Assembly: GCF_028737205.1 (NCBI RefSeq)
Contig: NZ_JAQZAL010000020.1
Span: 62,001-126,000 of the forward strand
DNA length: 64,000 bases
Direction: 5' to 3'
Source: Actinomycetospora lutea
Lineage (GTDB): Bacteria; Actinomycetota; Actinomycetes; Mycobacteriales; Pseudonocardiaceae
A program made the position numbers and the translations under genes. A model generated the notes under the pieces. It saw only the letters and a program-made list of their open reading frames with translations. It was not told where the DNA came from and ran no database searches. The stretch's first letter is position 1. Each line of letters opens with the position of its first letter. Of the stretch, positions 46,261 through 62,005 are shown in pieces.

Positions 46261-46656
46261 ATGCAGCAGCAGGAGTTCGTCAGTGCGGTCAAGGAGAGCC
46301 TCGACCTGCCCGACAACCGGAGCGCCGAGCGGGCCGTGCGCGCCACGCTGACCGTCCTCGGACAGCGTCTCGAGGGCGGCGAGGCCAAGGACCTGGCCTC
46401 CCAGCTCCCCGGCGGCCTGGCCGACGCGCTGCCCGCCCAGGGAGCCGGCGAGCGGTTCGACGTCGACACCTTCTACCAGCGCATCGCCGAGCAGGAGGGC
46501 GAGGGCGTCACGGTCGCGCAGGCCCGCCAGCACGCCCGGGCGATCGCCAAGGGGCTGGAGACCGCGCTGTCCGACGGCGAGTGGCAGAACTTCACCAGCC
46601 AGCTCCCGAAGGACTTCCAGGACTTCCTCGGCACCGAGCCCGTCGAGAAGCACTAG
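46261..46656 (+). CDS. DUF2267 protein
   Basis: The 131-residue helical protein matches the DUF2267 pattern: EFVSAVKESLDLPDNRSAERAVRATLTVLGQRLEGGEAKDLASQLPGGLADALP, followed by a second helical half with GEWQNFTSQLPKDFQDFLG. The role of the family is unknown. ATG 46261 has a GAGGAGA site. The stop TAG shares its bases with the rmlA stop on the other strand. Confidence 0.88.
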   Translation: MQQQEFVSAVKESLDLPDNRSAERAVRATLTVLGQRLEGGEAKDLASQLPGGLADALPAQGAGERFDVDTFYQRIAEQEGEGVTVAQARQHARAIAKGLETALSDGEWQNFTSQLPKDFQDFLGTEPVEKH

Positions 46657-47549
46657 GAGGTCGTGGCCGCTCCGGCGCGGCGGGCGATGTCCATGACGTA
46701 GTCGCCGTAGCCGGAGCTGGCCTGGCGTTCGCCGAGCAGGTAGGCCTGGTCGGCGGTGATCCATCCCTTGGCCAGGGCGATCTCCTCGAGGCAGGCGAAG
46801 CGCACGCCCTGGCGGTGCTCGAGGACCTGGACGTACTGGCTGGCCTCGATCAGGGATTCGTGGGTGCCGGTGTCGAGCCAGGCGAAGCCGCGCCCGAGGT
46901 CGATCAGGCGGGCGTCGCCGCGGTCGAGGTAGGCGCGGTTGACGTCGGTGATCTCGAGTTCGCCGCGCGCGGAGGGGCTCAGGGTGGCGGCGATGTCGAG
47001 CACGTCGTTGTCGTAGAAGTAGAGCCCGGTGATGGCCCGGTTGGAGCGCGGGCGGGCGGGTTTCTCCTCGATGGAGAGCAGCCGCCCGCTCGGGTCGGCC
47101 TCGCCGACGCCGTAGCGGCCGGGGTCGCGCACGGGGTAGCCGAACAGCACGCAGCCCTTCTCCGCCTCGAGCCGGGCCGCTTCCCGCTCGAGCAGGGTGG
47201 AGAAGCCCTGGCCGTGGAAGATGTTGTCGCCCAGCACCAGCGCGGCGGTGTCGTCACCGACGTGCTCGGCGCCGATGAGGAACGCCTCGGCCAGCCCGTT
47301 CGGGGCGGCCTGCTCGGCGTAGGAGAACGACACCCCCAGCTCGGCGCCGTCGCCGAGCAGACGCTCGAAGGCGGGCAGGTCGACCGGGGTGGAGATCACC
47401 AGGATCTCGCGGATCCCGGCCAGCATCAGCACCGAGATCGGGTAGTAGATCATCGGCTTGTCGTAGACCGGCAGCAGCTGCTTGGACACCGCGCGGGTCA
47501 CCGGGTGCAGCCGCGAGCCACTGCCCCCGGCCAGCACGATCCCCTTCAC
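46653..47549 (-). CDS. rmlA: Glucose-1-phosphate thymidylyltransferase
   Basis: The enzyme makes dTDP-glucose from dTTP and glucose 1-phosphate, the first step to dTDP-rhamnose, which supplies the rhamnose of the arabinogalactan linker. The 298-residue protein has the nucleotide-binding GGSGSRLHPVTRAVSKQLLP, YDKPMIYYPISVLMLAGI, VLGDNIFHGQG and DVNRAYLDRG, a near-textbook RmlA. GTG 47549 overlaps the rmlB stop by four bases, so rmlB and rmlA are translated as a pair. Confidence 0.97.
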   Translation of the reverse strand: MKGIVLAGGSGSRLHPVTRAVSKQLLPVYDKPMIYYPISVLMLAGIREILVISTPVDLPAFERLLGDGAELGVSFSYAEQAAPNGLAEAFLIGAEHVGDDTAALVLGDNIFHGQGFSTLLEREAARLEAEKGCVLFGYPVRDPGRYGVGEADPSGRLLSIEEKPARPRSNRAITGLYFYDNDVLDIAATLSPSARGELEITDVNRAYLDRGDARLIDLGRGFAWLDTGTHESLIEASQYVQVLEHRQGVRFACLEEIALAKGWITADQAYLLGERQASSGYGDYVMDIARRAGAATTS

Positions 47550-48559
47550 GTCGTGCCCCAGTCCGTGTCGGCCCCCTCGACGACCGGGCTGCGTCCGATC
47601 AGCGGGCGCCACCACGCCTCGTTCTGCCGGTACCAGTCCACCGTCGCCGCGATCCCCTCGTCCCACCCAATCCGCGGGGCCCAGCCGAGCTCGGTGCGCA
47701 GCTTGGAGCTGTCGAGCAGGTAGCGCCGGTCGTGGGACGGCCGGTCCGGGACGATCGTCTTCAGCTCCGGTCCCAGGCCCAGCGCCCCGAGCACGCTGTC
47801 GGCGATGCCCTCGATGTCGACCTCGTGCCCGGAACCGACGTTGTAGGTCTCCCCGATCCGCCCGTGCGCGAGGACCGCGTCGATCGCGGCGGCGTGGTCG
47901 TCGACGTGCAGCCACTCGCGGCGGTTCTTCGTCGAGGCGTAGAGCGGCAGCGCCTCCCCCGCGAGCGCGCGGGTGGTGAACAGCGGGATGACCTTCTCCG
48001 GGAACTGGAAGGGTCCGTAGTTGTTGCTGCAGTTGGTGATCGTCGCCGGCAGGTCGTAGGTCAGTCCGTAGGACCTGACCACGTGATCACCGCCGGCCTT
48101 CGCCGCGTTGTAGGGCGTGCGCGGGAGGTAGGGGGACTCCTCGGTGAAGGCGTCGTCCGCATCGAGGGGCAGGTCGCCGTAGACCTCGCAGGTCGAGATG
48201 TGGTGCAGCCGCGCGACCCCCACCCGGCGCACCGCCTCGCACAACCCCTGGGTGCCCATCACGTTGGTGGCGAAGAAGTCGCCGGGGCGCAGGATCGCCA
48301 GCGAGTTGTGCGACTCCGCGGCGAAGTTCACCACCACGTCCACCCCGTGAGCCCGCAACAGGTGCTCCACCAGCTCGGTGTTCGCGATCGAGCCGTGCAC
48401 GAACTCCACACCGGGCAGACCCTCGACGTTCTCCCGCACCCCGGCGTAGGTCAGCGCGTCGAGCCCCACCACCCGGTCCCCCGGGTGCTCACGCCGCCAG
48501 TACCGCACGAAGTTCGACCCGATGAACCCCGCGGCACCGGTCACCAGAACCGTACTCAT
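47546..48559 (-). CDS. rmlB: dTDP-glucose 4,6-dehydratase
   Basis: This is the second enzyme of dTDP-rhamnose synthesis, an extended SDR of 337 residues. It has the NAD-binding GAAGFIGSNF (8-17), the ISTCEVYGDLP strand, the catalytic Tyr-Lys in RTPYNAAKAGGDH, and a NCSNNYGPFQFPEKVIPLF segment that is diagnostic for RmlB. ATG 48559 has a GGGAG site. It is the first gene of the rmlBA pair and is divergent from rmlC across 60 bases. Confidence 0.97.
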   Translation of the reverse strand: MSTVLVTGAAGFIGSNFVRYWRREHPGDRVVGLDALTYAGVRENVEGLPGVEFVHGSIANTELVEHLLRAHGVDVVVNFAAESHNSLAILRPGDFFATNVMGTQGLCEAVRRVGVARLHHISTCEVYGDLPLDADDAFTEESPYLPRTPYNAAKAGGDHVVRSYGLTYDLPATITNCSNNYGPFQFPEKVIPLFTTRALAGEALPLYASTKNRREWLHVDDHAAAIDAVLAHGRIGETYNVGSGHEVDIEGIADSVLGALGLGPELKTIVPDRPSHDRRYLLDSSKLRTELGWAPRIGWDEGIAATVDWYRQNEAWWRPLIGRSPVVEGADTDWGTT

Positions 48560-48605
48560 CGTCTCCCTCGGCCGGGCGTGACGGCGATCCTCCCACGCAC
48601 GTCCC

Positions 48606-48611
48606 TAGGCT
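48606..48611 (+). promoter_or_regulatory. Probable -10 box of rmlC
   Basis: TAGGCT lies 8 bases before GTG 48620 in the short region between rmlB and rmlC. Confidence 0.5.
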
Positions 48612-48619
48612 CCACCGAC

Positions 48620-49228
48620 GTGGAGAGCGAGGAGATGGCCGTCCCCGGCGCCTGGAGGTTCACGCCGCCGGTGTTCCCGGACGCCCGCGGCATGTTCGCC
48701 GCGCCGTTCCAGGGCCGGCACCTCCGCGCCGCCGTCGGCCACGACCTCGCGGTGGCGCAGGCGAACACGAGCGTGTCCCGCCGCGGTGTGCTGCGCGGGG
48801 TGCACTACGCCGACGTCCCGCCCGGGCAGGCGAAGTACGTGCACTGCGTGGCCGGCGCGGTCCTCGACGTCGTCGTCGACCTCCGCGTCGGGTCGGCCAC
48901 CTTCGGCCGGTGGGACGCGGTGCGCCTCGACCCCGTGTCGATGTCCGCGGTCTACCTCGCCGAGGGCCTCGGGCACGCCTTCCTGGCGCTCGAGGACGGC
49001 ACCGTGACCAGCTACCTCTGCTCGACGCCGTACGACCCGGCGGCCGAGCACGGCGTCGATCCCCTCGACCCCGCACTCGGCCTCCCGTGGGAGCAGCACA
49101 TCGGCCGCGACGACCTGGTCCTGTCGGACAAGGACCGGGCGGCGCCGACGCTGGCGCAGGCCCGCGCGGCGGGCACGCTCCCGACGGTCGAGGCGTGCCG
49201 CGCGCGGGCCGACGAGCTGCGGGGGTAG
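48620..49228 (+). CDS. rmlC: dTDP-4-dehydrorhamnose 3,5-epimerase (RmlC) or a close relative
   Basis: The 202-residue cupin epimerase has the RmlC pattern: PPVFPDARGMFAAPFQ, the active-site His62 in GVLRGVHY, AKYVHCVAGAVLDVVVDLR, the YLAEGLGHAFLAL strand, Tyr132 in TSYLCSTPYDP and GLPW near the C-terminal end. It would give dTDP-L-lyxo-4-hexulose for RmlD, which is not in the window. Related sugar epimerases of antibiotic pathways look similar. GTG 48620 is favoured because of the TAGGCT box. An ATG five codons on has its GAGGAG site too close. Confidence 0.9.
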   Translation: MESEEMAVPGAWRFTPPVFPDARGMFAAPFQGRHLRAAVGHDLAVAQANTSVSRRGVLRGVHYADVPPGQAKYVHCVAGAVLDVVVDLRVGSATFGRWDAVRLDPVSMSAVYLAEGLGHAFLALEDGTVTSYLCSTPYDPAAEHGVDPLDPALGLPWEQHIGRDDLVLSDKDRAAPTLAQARAAGTLPTVEACRARADELRG

Positions 49229-49229
49229 C

Positions 49230-49715
49230 TCAGAGCGTGGCGGCCGGCGGCGCGACCGGGTCGGCGTCGGCGTCCACGTCCGCCCCGGGGAGGTGCACGT
49301 CGGTGATGACGATGTTGAGCTCGACGACGGTGACGCCGGCGATCTCCTCGACGGCCTTGGGCACGTGCCGGCGCAGCGCGCGGACCAGCTCGCGGGCCCC
49401 CACGCCGTACTCGATCTCGACGTCGAGGCCGACGTGGGCCTGCTGCTCGGCGAGCTCCACCCGCACGCCGGCGGTGTTCTCGGTGTTGCCGGTCAGGGTC
49501 TGGCGCACGGCGCCGACGGCCCGCGACGTGCTCCCGCCGAGCGCGACGACGCCGGGGATCTCGCGCGCGGCGAAGGCGGTCACCTTCTGGACCACCGACG
49601 GGAGCACCTCGGTGGTGCCCTCGACGGTCGTCGGGTCGCCCGCGGCGCCGGGGACGGAGGTGGCGGTCGGGGTGGGGCTGGACGGGGTGCTGCCCGGACG
49701 CTGAGCGCTGGTCAT
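49230..49715 (-). CDS. Asp23/Gls24-family protein
   Basis: The 161-residue protein has the Asp23 core: VVQKVTAFAAREIPGVVALGG, then VRVELAEQQAHVGLDVEIEYGVG, then LVRALRRHVPKAVEEIAGVTVVELNIVITDVHLP. Flanking tails are Pro/Ser/Thr-rich and Asp/Pro-rich. Family members are envelope stress or membrane-associated proteins of unclear mechanism. It lies just past the end of the gas vesicle operon on the same strand, with a gap of 55 bases after gvpK, so it may be co-transcribed with it. Confidence 0.88.
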   Translation of the reverse strand: MTSAQRPGSTPSSPTPTATSVPGAAGDPTTVEGTTEVLPSVVQKVTAFAAREIPGVVALGGSTSRAVGAVRQTLTGNTENTAGVRVELAEQQAHVGLDVEIEYGVGARELVRALRRHVPKAVEEIAGVTVVELNIVITDVHLPGADVDADADPVAPPAATL

Positions 49716-49770: not shown

Positions 49771-50082
49771 TCACCGGTCGCGGGGCAGCAGCGGACCGAG
49801 CGGTCCGAGATCGAGGTTGAGGTCGTCCGCGGTGAGCCCGAACTGCTCGGTGAGCTCGTCCATCGCGTCGGCGAGGTGCATCAGCGACGTGCCGAGGTCC
49901 TCCTCCTCCTGCTCGGTGAGGTCGCCCTGCTCGACCCGCCGGATCGCCTGGCGCTCCATCAGCTGCCGGAGCAGCTCGACGATCGTGAGCACGAGCTTCA
50001 TGAGGTCGCGGCGCACCGCGTCCTTGTCGATCTCGATGCGGTTGGCGCGGGTGCGGCCCGGCTCCTCGGTGTCGTCAGCCAT
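49771..50082 (-). CDS. gvpK: Gas vesicle protein GvpK
   Basis: The 103-residue protein matches GvpK: RIEIDKDAVRRDLMKLVLTIVELLRQLMERQAIRRVEQGDL, EEEDLGTSLMHLADAMDELTEQFGL and the family end DLNLDLGPLGPLL. GvpK is a minor protein needed for assembly or growth of the gas vesicle. ATG 50082 lies inside the gvpS end (8-base overlap). It is the last canonical gas vesicle gene of the operon. Confidence 0.96.
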   Translation of the reverse strand: MADDTEEPGRTRANRIEIDKDAVRRDLMKLVLTIVELLRQLMERQAIRRVEQGDLTEQEEEDLGTSLMHLADAMDELTEQFGLTADDLNLDLGPLGPLLPRDR

Positions 50083-50341
50083 GACCGGACTCCAGCTCGC
50101 GATCGGCTCTCTCGGCGCGGGCGGCGAGGGTCCCCGGTCGCTCCACCGGCGCGATCGACGTGATGAGGGCGCGCAGCGAGATGCGCACGAGGTCGACGCC
50201 GGCCAGCGAGATCGTCAGGTCGCCGGCGAGCACGACGCCGCCGGCCAGGAGGCGGTCGAGCAGGTCGACGAGCGCGACCTCCTCGTCCCCGAACAGCGAC
50301 GTCGCCCGGGGTTCGAGCTCTCCCGAACCCGGCCCGGTCAC
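50075..50341 (-). CDS. gvpS: Gas vesicle protein GvpS (GvpA/GvpJ-fold)
   Basis: This 88-residue member of the GvpA/J family has the core VALVDLLDRLLAGGVVLAGDLTISLAGVDLVRISLRALITSI, in which the second half departs from GvpA. GTG 50341 overlaps the gvpL stop by four bases. In streptomycetes the small GvpA-like gene between gvpL and gvpK is called gvpS, and the order here is the same. It is likely a minor structural or nucleation protein. GvpJ would be the alternative name. Confidence 0.85.
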   Translation of the reverse strand: MTGPGSGELEPRATSLFGDEEVALVDLLDRLLAGGVVLAGDLTISLAGVDLVRISLRALITSIAPVERPGTLAARAERADRELESGHG

Positions 50342-51105
50342 GGAGCGCCCTGCGCCGCCTGCGCGAAGGAGTAGGGCACCCACGGGCCGGTGACCTCCAC
50401 GCGGATCCGCGGGTGGTCGCCGAGGGACGCGACGAGGGCGCGGAGCTCGTCGGCGCGCTCGACCGGCAGGAGGTAGGCGTGGTTGAGCACCATCGGGTCC
50501 GACTGCCCGGACAGCTGCGCGTCCTGGAGACGGTGGCTGCGGGTCGCGGCCGCGAGCGCGCTGACCTCGGCGTCCACCTCGGCGGCGGCGGCGCGCGCGT
50601 CGTCGAGCGAGGTCTCGCTCTCGCGCAGCGCCTTGCGCCGCTGCCGCAGGTAGTCGGCGCCGGACGTCGGCTTCGCCGCCTCTGCGCCGGCGGCGGCCCC
50701 GCCGCCCTTGCGCGCGTAGATCTTCAGTCCCCACTCGGCACGGCCGGCGAGGCGGTCGAGTGCGGCCGCGAACGTGTCCCGGCCCTCGGCCAGCACGGCC
50801 CGCACGCGCTCGTCGTCGAAATAGACGGTCGCGAGCGCGAGCGGGGCGACGAGGTGGTCGTGCCCGAGGGTGTCGACGACGTGGTGGTGGGCCCGCGCGG
50901 TCGCCGCCAGCCACTCGAGGTCCTCCAGGCGCTCCTCGAGCGCCCGCTCCTCGAACTCGCCGCGGTCGACGTCGCTCACCACCGCCGTCACCCCGTCCCC
51001 GGTGAGCAGACGGACGGGCCCGCCCCCGACGCCGGTGAGGCCGCCGACCGCCGCCGGCTCGACGTCGCGGGCGAGCGCGTACACGTAGGTCAGCGTGTCG
51101 CTCAC
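50338..51105 (-). CDS. gvpL: Gas vesicle protein GvpL (GvpL/GvpF family)
   Basis: The 255-residue protein belongs to the GvpL/GvpF family: TYVYALARDVEPAAVGGLTG at the start, DLEWLAATARAHHHVVDTL, VAPLALATVYFDDERVRAVL and the late NHAYLLPVERADELRALVASL followed by VEVTGPWVPYSFA. The family accounts for accessory proteins at the gas vesicle nucleation complex. GTG 51105 overlaps the gvpJ stop (GTGA). It is a paralogue of the gvpF product in the same operon. Confidence 0.95.
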   Translation of the reverse strand: MSDTLTYVYALARDVEPAAVGGLTGVGGGPVRLLTGDGVTAVVSDVDRGEFEERALEERLEDLEWLAATARAHHHVVDTLGHDHLVAPLALATVYFDDERVRAVLAEGRDTFAAALDRLAGRAEWGLKIYARKGGGAAAGAEAAKPTSGADYLRQRRKALRESETSLDDARAAAAEVDAEVSALAAATRSHRLQDAQLSGQSDPMVLNHAYLLPVERADELRALVASLGDHPRIRVEVTGPWVPYSFAQAAQGAP

Positions 51106-51674
51106 CCGTCGGCCCGCCGCCGCCGCTGGCCCTGCTGCTGGCCCTGCTTGTCGCCCTGACCGGTTGAGCGCTTGCGGCGCGCCGGCTGCGGTGCGGGCTC
51201 GGGCTCCGGCTCGTCGTCCACGATCTCGGCGTCCTCGACGTCCTCTGCGTCCTCGAGGTCGTCGGCGTCGTCGGTCTCGTCGAGCTCCTCCTCGTCGTCG
51301 CCGCCCTCGAGGGCCGGAGCGTGCCCGTTGCGGCCCTCCAGCGCCTCCAGCCGCTCGCGCAGGCGCCGGTTCTCCTCCTCGAGCTGCTGGTGCCCGGAGG
51401 AGAGGGTGGGATCGCGCTCCCACCAGTCGATCCCCATCTCCTTGGCGCGGTCGACCGACGCGACGATCAGCCGCAGCTTGATCGTCAGCAGCTCGATGTC
51501 GAGCAGGTTGATCTGGACGTCGCCCGCGATGACGATGCCCTTGTCCAGGACCCTTTCGAGGATGTCGGCGAGGTTCGTCCCGTCGCCACCGCCGCCCTGC
51601 CGTGCCGGGGACCCGCCTGCCGCCTGGTTCGGGGTCGACGGCATCTGCCCGGTCCAACGCACCGGGTCGTTCAT
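51102..51674 (-). CDS. gvpJ: Gas vesicle protein GvpJ with a long charged tail
   Basis: The GvpA-like core (about 34-80) reads NLADILERVLDKGIVIAGDVQINLLDIELLTIKLRLIVAS. The rest is unusual: a coiled-coil stretch (QQLEEENRRLRERLEALEG, about 95-113), an acidic segment of about 45 residues (DDEEELDETDDADDLEDAED), Glu-Pro repeats and a basic Arg/Gln end (QQGQRRRRADG). Many GvpJ proteins end soon after the core, so the tail nearly doubles the length. It resembles the charged regions of GvpO and the GvpZ-like protein. Confidence 0.9.
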   Translation of the reverse strand: MNDPVRWTGQMPSTPNQAAGGSPARQGGGGDGTNLADILERVLDKGIVIAGDVQINLLDIELLTIKLRLIVASVDRAKEMGIDWWERDPTLSSGHQQLEEENRRLRERLEALEGRNGHAPALEGGDDEEELDETDDADDLEDAEDVEDAEIVDDEPEPEPAPQPARRKRSTGQGDKQGQQQGQRRRRADG

Positions 51675-51711
51675 GGGTTGCTTCCTCTCGTGTCCCCCGC
51701 GTCCCCCACCG

Positions 51712-52974
51712 TCACTCGTCGTCGCCGCGACCCCGCGTGTAGCGCTTGACTCGGTGGTAGCTGATGAGCTCGCCGTCGGCGTCCATCTCGGCCTCGTACG
51801 TCGCGAGGATGTCCGCAGTCTCGGGGATCTTGCGGCTCTCGACCACCTCGAGCCCCACGACGAAGCCGTCGTCCGTGCGGCGCACCGACGTGATCGTCTC
51901 GGTCTCCTTGCCGCTCATCTCCTGCACCTGCTCGGCGGCCCACCGAGCGATCTTGCGGGCGGGGATCTTCTTCGGCTCGGGCTCCGGTTCGGGCTCGGGC
52001 TCCGGTTCGGGCTCGGGCTCCGGTTCGGGTTCGGCCTCGTCGGCGAGGTCCTCGTCGTCCTCGATCTCGTCCTCGTCCTCGATCTCGTCGTCGGTCTCGT
52101 CGACGTCCTCCGCCTCGTCGAGGTCGTCCTCCTCGTCGTCGAGGTCGTCGGCGTCGTCGGCGTCCTCCGCCTCGTCGAGGTCGTCGGCGTCGTCGGTCTC
52201 GTCGAGGTCGTCCCCGTCGAGGTCGTCCTCGTCGAGGTCCTCCGGCTCGTCGAGGTCCTCGTCGAGGTCCTCGTCCACGTCCTCGGGCTGCTGCTCGGGC
52301 TCCGGGTCGGCCGGCTCCTCGCGGCGACGGCGGCGGCGCGGGCGTTCCTGCTCCGCCGCCGCGTCGTCCTCGGACCGTCGACGGCGCCGCGGGCGCTCCT
52401 CGTCCGGGGCGTCCTCCCCCGCAGGGCGGCGCCGGCGTCGGGGCCGCTCCCCGTCCGCCGGCTCGTCAGCGGCGGCCGCGCGACGTCGGCGCGGACGTCC
52501 CTGTTCCTCGCCGTCGCCCGGGGTGTCCTCGGGCGTCCGCCGACGCCGCGGCTTCTCCGGCGCGTCACCCTCGGAGTCCTCGCCCGCCGGTCGGCGCCGA
52601 CGCCGCGGCTTCTCCGGCGCGTCACCGTCGGAGTCCTCGCCCGCCGGTCGGCGCCGGCGGCGCGGCTTCTCCTCCGTCGCAGACCCCGACCCGTTCTCGG
52701 CCGGCCGACGGCGGCGGCGCGGCTCGTCCTCCGCGCCGCCGTCCGCCGGCTTGCGCCGGCGGCGCGGTTTTTCCTCGGTCGCGGTCCCGTCCTGCTCGCC
52801 GTCCGCCGGCCTGCGGCGGCGACGCGGCCGTTCCTCGCCCCCGGCCTCCGGCGCCGCGCCGTTGCCGTTGGCGCGGCGACGGCGAGGCCGTTCCTGGTCG
52901 GTGAGCGGGGGGTCGGCCCGGTCGTCGTCCGTCGAGTCGTCGGCCGCCACCTCGCGGTCGGCGGAGCGCGTCAC
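51712..52974 (-). CDS. gvpO: GvpO with a giant charged N-terminal extension
   Basis: Only the last 85 or so residues are the GvpO domain: KKIPARKIARWAAEQVQEMS, then SVRRTDDGFVVGLEVVESRKIPETADILATYEAEMDADGEL and SYHRVKRYTRGRGDDE. The preceding 330 residues are extreme in composition. Residues about 29-218 hold eleven blocks of the type RPRRRRR or KPRRRRR, spaced by acidic Pro/Ala/Gly linkers. About 230-315 is almost pure Asp/Glu/Leu. About 315-332 is a run of EP. Usual GvpO proteins are about 100-140 residues. The repeats are visible in the DNA (57-bp and 18-bp units). GTG 52974 overlaps the gvpG stop. The extension is probably disordered and could bind nucleic acid, the gas vesicle surface or other charged tails. 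Confidence 0.9.
   Translation of the reverse strand: MTRSADREVAADDSTDDDRADPPLTDQERPRRRRANGNGAAPEAGGEERPRRRRRPADGEQDGTATEEKPRRRRKPADGGAEDEPRRRRRPAENGSGSATEEKPRRRRRPAGEDSDGDAPEKPRRRRRPAGEDSEGDAPEKPRRRRTPEDTPGDGEEQGRPRRRRAAAADEPADGERPRRRRRPAGEDAPDEERPRRRRRSEDDAAAEQERPRRRRRREEPADPEPEQQPEDVDEDLDEDLDEPEDLDEDDLDGDDLDETDDADDLDEAEDADDADDLDDEEDDLDEAEDVDETDDEIEDEDEIEDDEDLADEAEPEPEPEPEPEPEPEPEPEPKKIPARKIARWAAEQVQEMSGKETETITSVRRTDDGFVVGLEVVESRKIPETADILATYEAEMDADGELISYHRVKRYTRGRGDDE
51974..52027. repeat. Tandem 18-bp repeat (Glu-Pro run of GvpO)
   Basis: Three copies of an 18-base unit built on GGCTCGGGCTCCGGTTCG encode alternating Glu and Pro on the minus strand. Imperfect continuation is seen on the right. 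Exact in-frame units suggest expansion by slippage. Confidence 0.8.
52561..52674. repeat. Tandem 57-bp repeat in GvpO
   Basis: Two adjacent 57-base units differ at only a few positions and encode the same 19-residue unit on the minus strand, a five-Arg block followed by PAGEDSDGDAPEKP. A partial third unit precedes them. The near-identity indicates recent duplication within an already repetitive gene. Confidence 0.85.
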
Positions 52975-53204
52975 GCGCCACCCCCGCCCACGAGGCGCTG
53001 CAGGAGGACCTCCTGCTGCTCGTCACGATCGGCCTCGGTGATCTCGCCGCGCTCGAAGGCCGCGTCGAGCTCGTCGATCTGGGCACGGATGACCGCGGGG
53101 TCGTTCATCTGGTGGTCGACCTGGTCGGCGATCTTCTCGCCCACCCAGGCCACCCCGCGGACCGGCGCCAGGGGCAGGAGCAGCAGCTCGGTGAAGAAAC
53201 CCAC
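52971..53204 (-). CDS. gvpG: Gas vesicle protein GvpG
   Basis: The 77-residue protein begins FFTELLLLPLAPVRGVAWVGEKIADQ and continues with a helical region INDPAVIRAQIDELDAAFERGEITEAD-like in pattern (here MNDPAVIRAQIDELDAAFE), the GvpG signature of about 80 residues. GTG 53204 is chosen because the family starts with this hydrophobic segment and a GGAGA site lies just before. It follows gvpF by 10 bases and overlaps the gvpO start by four. Its partner proteins in the assembly complex are GvpF/L and GvpJ. Confidence 0.94.
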   Translation of the reverse strand: MGFFTELLLLPLAPVRGVAWVGEKIADQVDHQMNDPAVIRAQIDELDAAFERGEITEADRDEQQEVLLQRLVGGGGA

Positions 53205-53214
53205 GTCTCCGCCC

Positions 53215-54024
53215 TCAGGCCTGAGCCTCGTCGGGGACCTCGAACTCCGGGAGGAAGTCGAATGCCGCGGTGGGACCGATGAGGCGCAGCTCCACCCGCC
53301 CGGACCACGCATCGCCGAGCTCGTCGACCGCCCGCTCGAAGTCGCTGCGGTGGTCGGTACGGACGAGGAAGGCGAGGTGCACGGCGCCGTTCTCGCCGCC
53401 CGCCTCCTTGACCTCCGTCGCGACCGCGAACTTCGACAGCGCGTCGACGCACGCCTGCGCGTCGTCGGCGCGGAGCTGGTCCATGGCCTTCGAGATCGCC
53501 TCGCCGAGCCGGATCCGGTCGTAGTAGCTGGCGTCCTCGTCGACCCCGGCGATCTTCTCGCGCATCCCCTGGATGCTCGGATCGGCCTCCAGGATGCGTG
53601 TGAGCACCGCGTCCTGGTCGTAGTCGCCGCGCAGGCGGAACTCGAGGTGGCCCTTGAGCTGCTCGAGCGCCCGGATGAAGTAGTCCTGGTGCGGGGCGAG
53701 CAGCTCCTCGGCGACGGCGTCGTCGTCGGTGACGACGGCCCCGAACCGCATCGGGAGCACGGGGGTCTCCTGGGCGATCGCGTTGAGCACCGCCTCGTGG
53801 GCCATGAGGTCCTTGCGCGTGCCCAGCGCGCGATCGGCCGCGACGTCGCTCACGACCGCGGCCAGCCTGCCCTCGGTGACGAGACCGAGCTGGTTGCCGT
53901 CCTCGCCGTAGGGGATCGGGTCGAGGCCGTCGGGGATGCGCACCCCGGCCGGCACGATGCCGTAGATGTAGGACGCCCGGGCGCTGCTCTGCGAGCCCTT
54001 CGTGGAGTCCTCGGTGGTGGTCAC
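53215..54024 (-). CDS. gvpF: Gas vesicle protein GvpF (GvpL/GvpF family)
   Basis: The 269-residue protein has the GvpF hallmarks: ASYIYGIVPAGVRIPDG, AAVVSDVAADRALGTRKDLMAHEAVLNAIAQETPVLPMRFGAVV, HQDYFIRALEQLKGHLEFRLRGDYDQDAVLTRIL and the final GPTAAFDFLPEFEVP. GvpF contacts GvpA and is required for gas vesicle formation. GTG 54024 has an AAGGAGG site 5 bases upstream, which decides it over longer frames. It lies 11 bases after gvpA. Confidence 0.96.
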   Translation of the reverse strand: MTTTEDSTKGSQSSARASYIYGIVPAGVRIPDGLDPIPYGEDGNQLGLVTEGRLAAVVSDVAADRALGTRKDLMAHEAVLNAIAQETPVLPMRFGAVVTDDDAVAEELLAPHQDYFIRALEQLKGHLEFRLRGDYDQDAVLTRILEADPSIQGMREKIAGVDEDASYYDRIRLGEAISKAMDQLRADDAQACVDALSKFAVATEVKEAGGENGAVHLAFLVRTDHRSDFERAVDELGDAWSGRVELRLIGPTAAFDFLPEFEVPDEAQA

Positions 54025-54035
54025 GCCGGCCTCCT

Positions 54036-54416
54036 TCACGCCTGCTCGCGACGGCTCTGGCGCTCGCCGCGCACTTCGTCCCACTTCTCCTTGCCGGCGT
54101 CGAGCACGCCCTTGGTCTTGCCCTTCGCACCGCCCTGGGTGGCGCCCTCGGTCATGCCGCCGACGACCTGGCCCAGATCCTTGCCGCCCTTGGCGTGCAG
54201 GTCCAGGCGGTTGGTCGCCTCGGCGAACCGCAGGTAGGTGTCGACGCTGGCCACCACGATGCGGGCGTCGATGGTGAGGATCTCGATCCCGACCAGCGAC
54301 ACCTTGACGAACGCATCGATGACCAGACCCTTGTCCAGGATCAGGTCGAGGACCTCGGCGAGCCCACCCTGCGGCTCCTTCTGCACGCCTCCGCCTTGCC
54401 GTTGGCTGACGGTCAC
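54036..54416 (-). CDS. gvpA: Gas vesicle major shell protein GvpA
   Basis: The core (about 19-70) reads [55 protein letters not shown], a near-perfect GvpA that builds the ribbed gas vesicle wall. The protein runs on for about 55 residues with Gly/Lys-rich and amphipathic helical content ([44 protein letters not shown]). Cyanobacterial GvpA stops near residue 70. Streptomycete GvpA proteins also have such tails. It is the fourth gene from the shore of the operon, if ParA and the winged-helix gene are not counted it is the third. Confidence 0.96.
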
Positions 54417-54521: not shown

Positions 54522-55832
54522 TCAGGCCGGGGTGCGCTGGCGGCGGGAGCGGCGACGGGGACGCTCGTCCTCGTCGGCGGCGTCGGCCTCGTCGGCCTCG
54601 TCGGCCGGCTCGTCCTCGAGCTCGTCCTCCGCCTCGTCGAGGTCGTCCTCGGCCTCGAGGTCCTCGTCGAGCTCGCCCTCGGCGTCCTCGTCGACCAGCT
54701 CGTCGTCGTACTCGTCCTCGAGCTCGTCCTCGTCGACGTCCTCGTCCTCGGCCACGAGCTCGCCGTCCTCGAGCTCGTCCTCGTCGACGTCCTCGTCCTC
54801 GGCCACGAGCTCGCCGTCCTCGTCCTCGAGGTCCTCGTCGGCGGCCTCGTTCTCGTAGGAGTCCTCGTACTCGTCGCCCTCCTCCTCGGCGGCGCGCTGC
54901 TCCTCCTCGAGGGCCTCCTCGTGGGTCTTGACGACCTCGCTGTCACGGATCTCCCCGCGCCAGCCCTCGAGCTCCTCGCGGTTGATCAGCGTGTCCATCA
55001 TGACGTGGCGGCAGAAGTGCTTGAACTCGAGACGCGCCCGGCGCCCGACCGCCCGCCACAGGTTCCCGGTCTTCTCGAAGAAGCCCTGCGGGTAGTACTC
55101 CATGATCAGGACGATGCGCGTCAGGTTCGGCGCGAGCTCACTGAACGTGACGATGCCGTCCGCGGAGCCCTTGGCGCCGGACGAGACCCACAGGATGTGG
55201 CTGTCGGGCACCTGCTCACGGATCGTGGTCTCCCACGAGCGACGCGACCAGAAGACCTTCGCGGTCCAGACGACCTTCTCGTCGGACTCCTGGTTGACCG
55301 TCTCGACCTTCTTCATGAAGCTCGGGAAATCGGCCATCTGGGTCCACTGGTCGTAGGCGACGCGCAGCGGCACCCCGACGTCCTGGACCTCGTAGATGTT
55401 CATGAACTTGAACTTGCCGCGACCGCTGGAGTTGCCACCCCCGCTGCCGCTGCCGCCCTCGTCGCTGTCGCTGTCGCTGTCGTCGCCGCCCATGCCGAGC
55501 GCTCCCATGGCCTTGTCCTTGACGGCCGAGAACCCGCCCTTGAGCGCGCCGGTCACGCCGCTGCCGCCCTGCAGCATCGACGAGCCCGCACCCAGCGCGG
55601 ACTGCAGGCCCACGCTCGGGTTCTCGGCGACATCGGTGAGCTTGCTGGTGAGGCCCTCGACCTGGTCGAGGGCGGCACCGACGGCCCGGTCACCGGCCGC
55701 CTTGAGCAGGGCCGTCGCGGCCTGCTTGAGTCGATCCACCGGCAGCATGTCGGTGAGCGAACCGGAGGACGCGTCCGCGTCGGGCCGGTGCCCGTTCGTC
55801 GCGGCGCTCGAATCCGTGGCGGCCTCAGTCAT
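54522..55832 (-). CDS. SRPBCC-domain gas vesicle accessory protein (GvpZ-like) with an acidic tail
   Basis: The 436-residue protein has a helical, Gly/Ala-rich N-terminal half (SLTDMLPVDRLKQAATALLKAAGDRAVG, GGFSAVKDKAMGALGMGG). An SRPBCC domain follows (about 140-300), starting FMNIYEVQDVGVPLRVAYDQWTQMADFPSFM and including HILWVSSGAKGSADGIVTFSELAPN. From about residue 320 it becomes a long Asp/Glu tail with an exact 51-bp DNA repeat, ending in the basic DERPRRRSRRQRTPA. In streptomycetes a gene of this kind in the gvp operon is named gvpZ, and I apply that only as a probable match. It overlaps the preceding gene by 8 bases and is followed by gvpA 105 bases on. Confidence 0.85.
   Translation of the reverse strand: MTEAATDSSAATNGHRPDADASSGSLTDMLPVDRLKQAATALLKAAGDRAVGAALDQVEGLTSKLTDVAENPSVGLQSALGAGSSMLQGGSGVTGALKGGFSAVKDKAMGALGMGGDDSDSDSDEGGSGSGGGNSSGRGKFKFMNIYEVQDVGVPLRVAYDQWTQMADFPSFMKKVETVNQESDEKVVWTAKVFWSRRSWETTIREQVPDSHILWVSSGAKGSADGIVTFSELAPNLTRIVLIMEYYPQGFFEKTGNLWRAVGRRARLEFKHFCRHVMMDTLINREELEGWRGEIRDSEVVKTHEEALEEEQRAAEEEGDEYEDSYENEAADEDLEDEDGELVAEDEDVDEDELEDGELVAEDEDVDEDELEDEYDDELVDEDAEGELDEDLEAEDDLDEAEDELEDEPADEADEADAADEDERPRRRSRRQRTPA
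54721..54822. repeat. Exact 51-bp tandem repeat in the GvpZ-like gene
   Basis: Two identical adjacent 51-base units (54721-54771 and 54772-54822) encode twice the 17-residue acidic unit DGELVAEDEDVDEDELE on the minus strand. Complete identity implies a very recent duplication or active slippage. Confidence 0.9.
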
Positions 55833-56760
55833 CGCGCTTCGCCGTCCGTCGCGAGCCGGAGCCCGAGCCCGCCGTGGCGCGGCTGCGCGAGCTGCCGCCC
55901 TCGGAGGAGGACGAGGACGACCGGGACCGGCTCCCCGAGCTCTTGCGCGTCGAGCCGTTGCCCGAGCGCGGGGAGGACGACTCGCCGCCCTCCTCCGACG
56001 AGGTGCTGCGCCGGCGGCGCTCGCCGCCCGACGAGCTGCCCGAGGAACCGGACGACTTCGTCGAGCGCCGGCGGCCCGAGGAGCCCGAGCCCGAGGAGCT
56101 GGCGGCGCTCGCCGTCGCCGGCTCGCGCTCGGTGTCGTCGGTCTCGGCGGTGTCCTCGGCCTCGTCGACGTCCTCGACGTCCTCGACGTCCTCGTCCGCG
56201 GTCTCCTCCGCGACGTCGACGCCCTCGTCGCCCGACTCCTCCTCGGCGGCCTTGCGCCGCTTGCGGCCGGAGAGACCACGCGTCGTCTTGCCCACCGCAC
56301 TGCCGGCACCGCCCACGGCACCGCCGACGGCGCCGCCCGCGGTCGAGGCCACGTCACCGACAGCGCCACCGGCCTGGCCCACGGCGTCGCCGGCCGCACC
56401 GGCCGTCTCGCCGACGGCCTGCCCGGCCGCACCCGCCGCCTCGGTGGCGGGCTTGCCGAGGTTCTCGACGCGGTTGACGAGGTTGTCGGTCAGCGCCTCC
56501 ATGCGCGAGCTGGCGACCGCCAGCGCCGCGTCCTTGCCGGCCTCGAGCAGACGGCCGCGCACCGCGCTGTCGAGCTTCTGGAGCTCCGGCGAGGCCTGGA
56601 CGAGCTTGGACACCATGCCGAGCAGCGCCGCCGGATCCGTGGAGATTTTCTTGCCCGCGAGCGCACCACCCAGCATGATGGCGAGCTTCATTTTCTTCGT
56701 ACGGCCCAACAGATAGCCGCCGATGACCGCGAGGGCCAATTTCAGGCCGGTTCCGGGCAC
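55825..56760 (-). CDS. First gene of the gas vesicle operon (GvpY-like)
   Basis: The 311-residue protein begins with a short hydrophobic segment LKLALAVIGGYLLGRTKKMKLAIMLGGALAGKK (4-36), which resembles the opening of an actinobacterial gvp-operon protein often called GvpY. A helical region (about 45-100) and a Gly/Ala-rich, amphipathic repeat zone (100-160, AGAAGDAVGQAGGAVGD) follow. After KTTRGLSGRKRRK comes an acidic stretch (EEESGDEGVDVAEETADEDVEDVEDVDE) and a Ser/Arg/Gly-rich end of about 100 residues. GTG 56760 has a GGAGGT site 7 bases upstream. It overlaps the SRPBCC gene by 8 bases. The function is unknown. Confidence 0.8.
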   Translation of the reverse strand: MPGTGLKLALAVIGGYLLGRTKKMKLAIMLGGALAGKKISTDPAALLGMVSKLVQASPELQKLDSAVRGRLLEAGKDAALAVASSRMEALTDNLVNRVENLGKPATEAAGAAGQAVGETAGAAGDAVGQAGGAVGDVASTAGGAVGGAVGGAGSAVGKTTRGLSGRKRRKAAEEESGDEGVDVAEETADEDVEDVEDVDEAEDTAETDDTEREPATASAASSSGSGSSGRRRSTKSSGSSGSSSGGERRRRSTSSEEGGESSSPRSGNGSTRKSSGSRSRSSSSSSEGGSSRSRATAGSGSGSRRTAKRDD

Positions 56761-57195
56761 CGTGCACCTCCGAACGGATTTGGTCTCACCTGTTGCGGTG
56801 GACCACAGCCCGCCGCCATCGAGCCGGACATTACATCGCGCCGTTCTCGAAAGCGCTAGACCGGGAAGATCAAATTTCTGGTGGGCCGTTCGCCCCAGTT
56901 GTCGATCACCGGAGCACGAAGGGCGGTCACGCATTCGGCGGTCACACCGACGGCCAAAACCTCCCGGCCGTTCTTCGGCACGAAGTTCGACCCAACGCCA
57001 GAACGTCCTGGGCTGAACGCGTGATGTCCGTACACCCCGCAGTCGCACGACGACGGAGCGAGATGCCTGACGCGACACCACGGACCCGTGCCCCGCTCCG
57101 TCGCACGGTGCTCTCGACCCCGCCGGCGGAGGGCACCAGACATCGCCGGACCGGCGCAACCGGCCGACCGGCTGATGCCGGACAGTGCTCAGGTC
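56761..57195. other. AT-richer gap with the probable gas vesicle operon promoter
   Basis: This 435-bp stretch between the winged-helix gene and gvpY has no credible gene on either strand. It contains AT-rich patches (around 56820-56880) that stand out from the window. A TAATGT on the minus strand (56828-56833) lies 67 bases before the gvpY start and might be a -10 box. A clear -35 is not visible, and GC-rich dyads near 57140-57175 may end the upstream transcript. The assignment of a promoter is inferred from position and composition. Confidence 0.4.
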
Positions 57196-60490: not shown

Positions 60491-62005
60491 TCAGCAGGTC
60501 GTGCTCGGCGGCGGGAGGGTCGTGTCGAGCAGGTACCGGTTCACGGCGTCGTCGACGCACGGGACGCCGTTGGTGTACACGGTGTGGCCGTCGCCCCGGT
60601 AGCTCAGGAGCACCGACCCCGGCAGGCGCCCGGCCAGCGCGACGCTGTTCTGGTACGGGGTGGCCGGGTCGTTCGTGGTGCCCAGGATGAGCATCGGCGG
60701 GCCGGTGTAGCCCTCGAGCGGCGTCAGCGGCTGCTGCGGGGCGGGCCAGTCGGCGCAGGTCAGGCCGCTGACGAGCACGTTGCCCGAGAAGTGCGGGGCG
60801 CGCAGCTCGGTGGCGCGGGCGGCCGCGAGCACCTGGGCGTCGTCGGTGGGCCAGGCGTTGTCCAGGCAGGTCACCGCGTTGTAGGTGTCGGAGTTGCTGC
60901 CCCGGAAGTAGGCGGTCGCGAGCGCGCGCATCGGCGTGCCGTCGCCCCGGTCCGCCGCGGCGAGGGCCGAGGCGAGCTGCGGCCAGCTCTGCTTGCTGTA
61001 GAGCGGGTAGACGACGCCGATCTCGAGCAGCCCGGCCGAGAGCGGGGTGGTGCCCGCGACCGGGAGCGGGGCCGCGGTGACCCGGGCGCGCACCCGGTCC
61101 AGGGTCCCGATCGGGTCGGCGCGCACCGGGCACCTCGCGTCGGCGCGGCAGGCGGCGTCGAACTGCCGCAACGAGTTCTCGAAGCTCTCGGCCTGCGCGG
61201 AGTCCAGGCCCGGCTTGCTCACGTCGACCACGCCGTCGAGCACGATCGCGCGCAGGCGGTCCGGGAAGAGCTGGGCGTAGGTCTGGCCGATCGACGTCCC
61301 GTAGGAGAACCCGAGGTAGTTGATGCGGTCCTCGCCCAGCGCCTCGCGGATGCGGTCCATGTCTCGGGCGACGTTGCGGGTGCCGAGGTGGGGCAGCAGG
61401 TCGCGGTAGCGCTGGCCGCACGCCGCGTCGTACCGGTCGACGGCGTCGTTCGTGGCCGCCTCGTCGGCCGGGTCGCCCGGGTCGGGGTCGCCGAAGTAGG
61501 GGGTGTCGGGCCCGAGCGGGCACTGCAGACCGGTGCTGTCGCCGACGCCGCGCGGGTCGAAGCCGATGACGTCGAAGCGGTCGGTGATCTCGGGGGGCAG
61601 CACGCCGGCCTGGACGGTCTCGATCCCCGACCCACCGGGTCCACCGGGGTTGAGGAGCAGCACGCCGACCCTGGCGGCCGGGTTCGTCGCCGGGCGCCGG
61701 GCGATGGCGATCGGCATCGTCGGCCCGGTGGGGTTCGCGTAGTCGAGCGGCACGGCCACCGACGCGCACTCCAGCCCTCCGTGGCACGGGGCGAACCGCG
61801 CCCCGCCGTCCGGGCCCGGGGGCGGCGGCGTCGCGGCGGCCGACGGGGTCGTCGACGACATCGGGATCGGCGGCACCCCCGGCTCGGGGCCGCGCGCGCA
61901 GCCGGCGAGGGCCAGCGCAGCGACGGCCACCACCAGCGCGCCCCGCGCCCGCCGGCGGAGGCGGCCGGGTACGGCCGCGCCGGACCGGGCGTGCGGTTGC
62001 GCCAT
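60491..62005 (-). CDS. Secreted alpha/beta-hydrolase lipoprotein, tripeptidyl aminopeptidase-like
   Basis: This 504-residue lipoprotein has a basic/hydrophobic signal peptide and the lipobox LAGC (Cys36). The alpha/beta-hydrolase fold shows LLLNPGGPGGSG, VIGFDPRGVGDS, the nucleophile elbow GFSYGTS (Ser234), and late TTNDPATPY (catalytic Asp) and GDGHTVY (catalytic His). Several Cys pairs fit the TAP/SlpD-like family of exported peptidases in actinobacteria, which remove tripeptides or short acyl groups. ATG 62005 follows an AGGAGT site by 6 bases. It is a single gene. Confidence 0.9.
   Translation of the reverse strand: MAQPHARSGAAVPGRLRRRARGALVVAVAALALAGCARGPEPGVPPIPMSSTTPSAAATPPPPGPDGGARFAPCHGGLECASVAVPLDYANPTGPTMPIAIARRPATNPAARVGVLLLNPGGPGGSGIETVQAGVLPPEITDRFDVIGFDPRGVGDSTGLQCPLGPDTPYFGDPDPGDPADEAATNDAVDRYDAACGQRYRDLLPHLGTRNVARDMDRIREALGEDRINYLGFSYGTSIGQTYAQLFPDRLRAIVLDGVVDVSKPGLDSAQAESFENSLRQFDAACRADARCPVRADPIGTLDRVRARVTAAPLPVAGTTPLSAGLLEIGVVYPLYSKQSWPQLASALAAADRGDGTPMRALATAYFRGSNSDTYNAVTCLDNAWPTDDAQVLAAARATELRAPHFSGNVLVSGLTCADWPAPQQPLTPLEGYTGPPMLILGTTNDPATPYQNSVALAGRLPGSVLLSYRGDGHTVYTNGVPCVDDAVNRYLLDTTLPPPSTTC

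Follow-up and report, generated by a model that had tools for sequence, protein, structure and literature searches.

The window analysed here is a stretch of 64,000 nucleotides of Actinomycetospora lutea (contig NZ_JAQZAL010000020.1, forward-strand positions 62,001 to 126,000), and all coordinates given below are positions within it. On its minus strand, the window carries a gas vesicle operon that reads gvpY-like, gvpZ-like, gvpA, gvpF, gvpG, gvpO, gvpJ, gvpL, gvpS-like and gvpK, followed by an Asp23-family gene. The same Y-Z-A-F-G-O-J-L-S-K order was found at most of the loci compared, and gvpO stands in first place at some others. The names gvpY and gvpZ were adopted because the order O-A-F-G-Y-Z-J reported for Streptomyces coelicolor (PMC5839063) matches Streptomyces-type loci such as L116.

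Several products of this operon end in charged tails. The gvpZ-like gene (54522–55832, with the ATG start picked by eye) encodes an SRPBCC protein with a Polyketide_cyc domain, the tail of which (about 127 aa, 54525–54905) is acidic and carries the motif RPRRRSRRQR close to the C-terminus. In GvpJ (51102–51674), a member of the GvpA family, the tail (approximate limits 51105–51305) passes from an acidic segment through EPEPEP to RRKR and RRRR, and the product of the gvpY-like gene (55825–56775, start uncertain) has a C-terminal tail that is acidic and then Ser/Arg-rich. The latter protein matched no Pfam family at E 0.01, and its tail is very rich in Ser, with scattered Arg motifs after the acidic tract. 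The tail of the shell protein GvpA (54036–54416) is short and weakly patterned, no charged tail is present in GvpF (53215–54084), GvpG (52971–53312), GvpL (50338–51156) or the GvpS-like protein (50075–50500, GvpA family, start uncertain), and GvpK (49771–50082) has no tail. When the ten operon proteins were compared with Pfam, no match to the GvpN or GvpC families was detected. The Asp23-family gene (49230–49715, minus strand) lies directly downstream of gvpK, is present at 8 of 16 Actinomycetospora loci and is probably a lineage-specific addition. The operon is adjoined at 46653–49228 by what we take, from inspection by eye, to be nucleotide-sugar genes (dTDP-glucose 4,6-dehydratase-like, thymidylyltransferase-like and epimerase-like).

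The gvpO gene occupies exactly positions 51712–52974 on the minus strand; it starts with a GTG codon that overlaps the stop of gvpG by 4 bases and encodes a product of 420 aa. This strand was assigned on the basis of the operon order, the GvpO domain and a GC3 of 0.85–1.0 along the gene. An open antisense frame on the plus strand (51172–54237, 1021 aa), which extends across gvpO to gvpF, was ruled out as a gene, being most likely a product of the high GC content and not evidence for a gene. Residues 329–418 of the product matched the Pfam GvpO family PF05800 (E 9.4e-28, 96.5 bits against a cut-off of 25), the sole Pfam match, and NCBIfam added nothing but weak similarity between the Glu-Pro stretch and models for SslE and TonB, scored far under the cut-offs.

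Ahead of the matched core, a tail of 333 aa was found, thus confirming from the open reading frame and the Pfam match the long, three-part N-terminal extension described in the initial annotation. From the N-end, residues 29–218 (52321–52890) hold eleven Arg blocks, mostly of the R/K-P-R4-6 kind (ten (R/K)PRRR-type blocks and one EPRRRRR), separated by acidic spacers so as to form a near-neutral polyampholyte. These are followed by an Asp/Glu tract at approximately residues 222–312 (52039–52311; NCPR about -0.68, with 63 D/E counted in residues 222–314), by a Glu-Pro run at residues 313–338 (51961–52038) adjoining the fold, and by the C-terminal folded domain at residues 339–420 (51715–51960), with one helix and four strands. 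The ten (R/K)PRRR motifs compare with a mean of 0.054 and a maximum of 2 in 2000 shuffled tails. Within the Arg-block region, an in-frame tandem duplication of 57 bp (19 codons; 52538–52672, 2.4 copies, 96% matches) reveals one visible route of growth of the tail.

In an AlphaFold2 model built from an alignment of 34 sequences, residues 1–310 showed block-mean pLDDT values of 36–51 without helix or strand, whereas the helix and four strands of the domain (residues 339–413) were modelled with pLDDT mostly above 90. The low-complexity tail is thus predicted to be intrinsically disordered, in agreement with what had been supposed for it, ahead of a confidently predicted domain. With this domain, Foldseek returned zero matches at E ≤ 0.001, and VIA-align detected designed cystatin-type proteins (Z 9.1 over 71 residues with an rmsd of 2.5, and Z 8.9) as well as YpmB, UipA and similar proteins (Z 6.5–7.7), the latter being, as we assume, PepSY-like. 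A fold common to the GvpO domain and cystatin/PepSY-like proteins does not reveal a function. A sequence search of the PDB with GvpO returned no convincing relative, the best match being alpha-synuclein at E 0.71.

The charges of the tail are not distributed at random. In the window protein the Arg-holding part has a net charge of +12 over 218 aa (NCPR +0.06), almost neutral because the spacers are acidic, and the entire tail reaches -63. Compared with shuffled sequences, charge segregation was evident in this tail (SCD z -11.8, delta5 z +12.7) and in all 14 untruncated copies of the genus (SCD z -2.2 to -14.1; delta5 z +4.9 to +14.8). Most of the long GvpO tails from elsewhere were also patterned beyond their shuffles; the charge order of the L139 tail (100 aa, Saccharopolyspora) was no different from them and that of L094 was patterned by SCD but not by delta5. 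Across the Arg parts of the genus, the blocks averaged +4.97; the spacers averaged -4.19, and their net charge was negative in 109 of 118. In 13 of 14 copies the NCPR of this part remained between +0.01 and +0.14 whatever the number of blocks, the outlier being L087, with a net charge of -25. The net charge of the Arg part did not follow block number (slope -0.04 ± 0.79 per block for the 14 copies, -0.13 ± 0.22 without L087). Therefore, this region is a polyampholyte and not a polycation, although duplication of neutral 57-bp units could produce the same near-neutrality without selection on net charge. The supposition of an opposite-charge disordered region was thus locally right, in that the tail is of mixed charge and predicted to be disordered, but did not hold for the Arg region taken by itself. 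All 23 GvpO tails scored were net negative, with values from -5 to -63 in the 14 untruncated copies of the genus, and the clear net positive charge expected of Arg-rich tails that bind nucleic acids was not seen in the window protein, thus weakening the proposal that the tail binds DNA or RNA.

A GvpO match was detected in all 18 Actinomycetospora genomes. The 14 untruncated copies located in gvp clusters all carried a tail in frame with the domain, which ranged from 140 to 393 aa, kept 5–18 Arg blocks despite the changing repeat number and was rich in Glu-Pro directly ahead of the fold; in all 14, the start overlaps the end of gvpG by 4 bases. Two further cluster copies, cut by contig ends (L088 and L091, in genomes G010 and G015), showed Arg/acidic or acidic parts, and the incomplete genomes G011 and G014 yielded an orphan copy only. 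As the tail is present and in frame in every untruncated copy, including that of G005, which sits on a single 6.17-Mb contig, an assembly error, considered initially as a possible origin of the extension, is very unlikely. The exact repeat numbers may be off in draft assemblies. In a relative (L006, genome G002), N bases were found within the GvpO repeat region.

To place these tails in a wider context, GvpO was searched in the family (present in 71 of 200 genomes) and in the class (64 of 296), the tails being read at the retrieved loci and the names of relatives being drawn from the best 80 of 202 matches. A tree was built from four Gvp cores for 98 of 121 loci, after dropping 17 duplicates, five loci with incomplete or odd N-ends (L088, L091, L132, L158 and L189, also excluded from the contrasts described below) and one locus without a core gene. 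Tails of at least 120 aa were present at 24 of the 98 loci, and the branches starred on the tree require this label to have switched at least four times; when the label was two or more [RK]{3,} runs plus an acid20 of at least 11, it applied to 22 loci, with three switches. Gains and losses are indistinguishable in this tree. The long tails belong to the whole of one clade, made up of Actinomycetospora and Pseudonocardia (P. ammonioxydans, P. parietis, P. endophytica and three further loci), and also to P. dioxanivorans, to a pair inside the Saccharopolyspora group and to the Streptomyces-type L116, the mostly acidic tail of which (166 aa) has one basic run and hardly any Arg blocks. Many other actinobacterial GvpO copies of the set have tails of 0–70 aa. 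Many of the short proteins, for example in Micromonospora, have a miniature basic-then-acidic leader of around 20–35 aa, often with a Glu-Pro end. As a motif, (R/K)PRRR is a feature of Actinomycetospora; P. endophytica L160 has two, inside its shuffle maximum, and 16 [RK]{3,} runs.

The tails evolve faster than the domain. In six ortholog pairs of the genus, amino-acid identity was 0.57–0.88 in the tail versus 0.85–0.99 in the domain, and in one Pseudonocardia-type pair it was 0.42–0.43 versus 0.82. As this excess affects all codon positions, any selection acts on composition and pattern and not on the exact sequence. At third codon positions of the (R/K)PRRRR units, pooled over ten genes, the difference was 0.63 and nearly saturated; the first and second positions hardly differed but were not used, since the units had been picked by their amino acids and the comparison would be circular. 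Besides the cluster copies, nine orphan GvpO genes (L239–L247) were found in eight Actinomycetospora genomes (G001, G003, G004, G005, G008, G011, G014 and G015). No other gvp genes were detected in the 18–20 kb retrieved around each of them and the acidic tail was absent from all nine; the GvpO domain may have a role unrelated to gas vesicles.

The initial annotation had named other charged Gvp tails as possible partners for the extension, and such tails are indeed present in these operons. The C-terminus of GvpZ, GvpY and most GvpJ proteins carries an acidic tract and then an Arg-containing tip, so that the layout is mirrored about the fold, with the tail at the N-terminus in GvpO and at the C-terminus in the other three. 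This polarity was scored at 104 of 121 loci (17 duplicates dropped), with L189 omitted for GvpO because of a wrong start, L091 having too few charges, and a tail being scored if it had at least four charges of each sign (26 GvpO and 40 GvpJ outside the genus fell short). Within the genus, Arg/Lys was more distal to the fold than Asp/Glu in 15 of 15 GvpO, 14 of 14 GvpZ (SRPBCC), 14 of 14 GvpY and 11 of 16 GvpJ tails; outside it, the same order was found in 41 of 58, 78 of 80, 69 of 73 and 26 of 45, respectively. The five exceptions among the GvpJ tails of the genus (L080, L083, L086, L090 and L093) belong to one subclade and show a reversed charge order, with a short Arg patch beside the coiled coil in place of the acidic tract, which has been lost or was never present. 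The GvpO tails of these loci are among the shorter ones (140–198 aa), and the subclade speaks against all four tails being strictly required.

The combination of charges was also restricted to part of the operon. In 14 operons of the genus, an acid20 of at least 13 plus an [RK]{3,} run was found in 13 GvpO, 14 GvpZ, 9 GvpJ and 9 GvpY, and in none of the 14 copies of each of GvpA, GvpF, GvpG, GvpL, GvpS and GvpK. The background was 1 of 6534 open frames in a six-frame count over 800 kb of the 6.17 Mb of one sister genome, a count preferred because a home-made gene caller found just 530 genes in those 800 kb. These figures depend on the thresholds: with [RK]{4,}, GvpZ dropped to 2 of 14 and the background to 0, and with an acid20 of at least 10 plus [RK]{3,}, 4 of 14 GvpL and 54 of the 6534 background frames were included.

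Correlated change of the tails along the tree was then assayed by independent contrasts. Co-expansion of the GvpO and GvpJ tails was not supported (98 loci, r 0.01 to 0.03 in four tests), despite raw correlations of rho 0.29 to 0.42, which may stem from kinship, and no link was found between the charges of GvpO and GvpY (90 loci, r -0.08 and -0.16). The acidity of GvpO was weakly linked to that of the SRPBCC protein (95 loci, r 0.26, p 0.01), as one of twelve cross-protein tests, with r 0.14 between GvpO Arg/Lys and SRPBCC acidity.

The above results suggest that similar tails on neighbouring Gvp proteins might act as a charge-based "velcro" that gathers the machinery for building the vesicles. 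In the reading that we favour, though tentatively and at somewhat less than an even chance, the tails would form an electrostatic scaffold that concentrates assembly factors, vesicles or both. The GvpO extension would be a selected, disordered "blocky polyampholyte", with neutral repeats of Arg block and acidic spacer far from the fold, the polyanion nearer to it and the Glu-Pro run as a spacer at the fold, and it would work with the like-built tails of GvpZ and GvpY, and with that of GvpJ in most of the genus. While the GvpO domain would dock on GvpA and its partners, as the haloarchaeal protein does, the Arg blocks would make many weak contacts with the acidic tracts of neighbouring GvpO, GvpZ, GvpY and GvpJ chains, and these contacts would concentrate the assembly factors in a condensate-like hub and/or cross-link vesicles. 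In favour of this scaffold are the presence of the design in all 14 untruncated copies, its charge segregation and polarity, its restriction to part of the operon, the steady net charge of the Arg part, the predicted disorder and the repeated change of tail state, together with precedents in the binding properties of haloarchaeal GvpO, the phase separation of Arg mixed-charge peptides, the charge blocks of RNase E and the clustering driven by GvpU in Bacillota. The chief result against it is the missing correlated evolution of the GvpO tail with those of GvpJ and GvpY; the GvpJ subclade with reversed charge order, the simple route to near-neutrality through duplicated 57-bp units, the many actinobacterial GvpO with tails of 0–70 aa, the unpatterned L139 tail and the patterning of L094 by SCD only also count against it, as does the report that gvp disruption in S. 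coelicolor produced no change in buoyancy (PMC5839063). A bolder version, which we regard as doubtful, would be a "charge code" spread over GvpO, GvpZ, GvpY and often GvpJ, in which complementary tails that all run from the fold through acid to an Arg tip co-condense, forming a compartment without a membrane where gas vesicles are assembled; the GvpO tail would have been enlarged in lineages such as Actinomycetospora and some Pseudonocardia to tune it.

Other explanations have to be weighed against this scaffold. The fast divergence of the tails, their variable length (140–393 aa), the recent 57-bp duplication and the absence of correlation with GvpJ or GvpY would all be expected if the tail were a nitrogen or arginine store, or weakly constrained repeat drift in which tandem duplication grows low-complexity tails with little specific function, and a paper on ArgR proposes nitrogen storage for the S. 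coelicolor Gvp proteins, in which Arg, Glu and Pro are highly abundant (PMC5839063). Nevertheless, the Arg motif persists despite nearly saturated third codon positions, charge is patterned and of common polarity, the tail is absent from the orphan GvpO of the same genus and nearly absent from the background, and the reading frame is intact in 14 of 14 copies; we consider storage or drift unlikely. The prevailing negative charge of the tails would fit a solubility or chaperone bristle that keeps the hydrophobic GvpA and its binding partners in solution, with net negative charge outweighing the Arg-acid contacts; the mostly acidic tail of L116 would suit such a role, and in haloarchaea GvpO attaches to the GvpA monomer, which it may stabilise in the manner of a chaperone (PMC9372576). 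This role leaves the retained Arg blocks and the charge patterning unexplained and seems improbable.

The same Arg blocks could instead bind gvp mRNA or DNA, with GvpO acting as a regulator of expression. Haloarchaeal GvpO is reported to influence the expression of GvpA, GvpC and GvpN (quoted in PMC11445434), and RNA is likewise bound by mixed-charge peptides with blocks of Arg (PMC9324279), but the near-neutral Arg part and the negative charge of the whole tail argue against it and the predicted cystatin/PepSY-like fold offers it no support, making it quite improbable.

With respect to novelty, the initial annotation knew of no described GvpO with such a layout, and none was found in the open-access literature searched, mostly at the level of listings, although the Arg/Glu/Pro richness of the S. 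coelicolor Gvp proteins had been published before (PMC5839063). Nor was a description found there of charge-block tails on several Gvp proteins or of their common polarity. The GvpO family and charge-block tails are each known; what appears new, within this literature, is that the two are joined and that several Gvp proteins have such tails with a common polarity. It is an old puzzle why soil actinobacteria keep gas-vesicle operons, and co-encoded charged tails of conserved polarity on specific Gvp proteins offer a testable physical hypothesis for the gathering of the vesicle machinery. Charged Gvp tails could also serve as tunable tails to place engineered gas vesicles.

Among known systems, the closest by descent is haloarchaeal GvpO, which in Halobacterium interacts with GvpN and GvpC as well as with GvpA in monomeric and multimeric form (PMC9372576) and which haloarchaea require to form vesicles. 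It shares with the window protein the folded domain family PF05800 and the location within a gvp cluster, but it is a protein of 13.2 kDa (PMC9372576), whereas here 333 residues of charged tail precede the domain. The patterning of that tail recalls the C-terminal charge blocks of Caulobacter RNase E, which are proposed to act in the phase separation of BR-bodies (PMC10412687); in both cases a folded protein bears a disordered tail in which Arg-rich positive blocks occur alongside negative ones, the disorder of the GvpO tail being predicted, but in RNase E the process is stimulated by RNA. Blocky Arg/acidic patterning is also shared with the R-MCD of nuclear proteins, and peptides of this type undergo phase separation, with an affinity for RNA and polyGlu, something not seen when the charges alternate (PMC9324279); unlike these eukaryotic domains, the Arg-block part of GvpO continues into a distinct polyanion and then an EP spacer. 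In function, the proposed analogue is GvpU, which clusters gas vesicles through a phase transition in Bacillus/Priestia megaterium (Li et al. 2024, cited in PMC11445434 and PMC10903477). GvpU and GvpT are reported to be exclusive to Bacillota (PMC10903477), whereas the window GvpO matches PF05800 only in Pfam. The likeness would lie in the gathering of gas vesicles: the putative hub would match GvpU-driven clustering by function and not by ancestry, and actinobacteria may have solved independently the problem for which Bacillota use GvpU.
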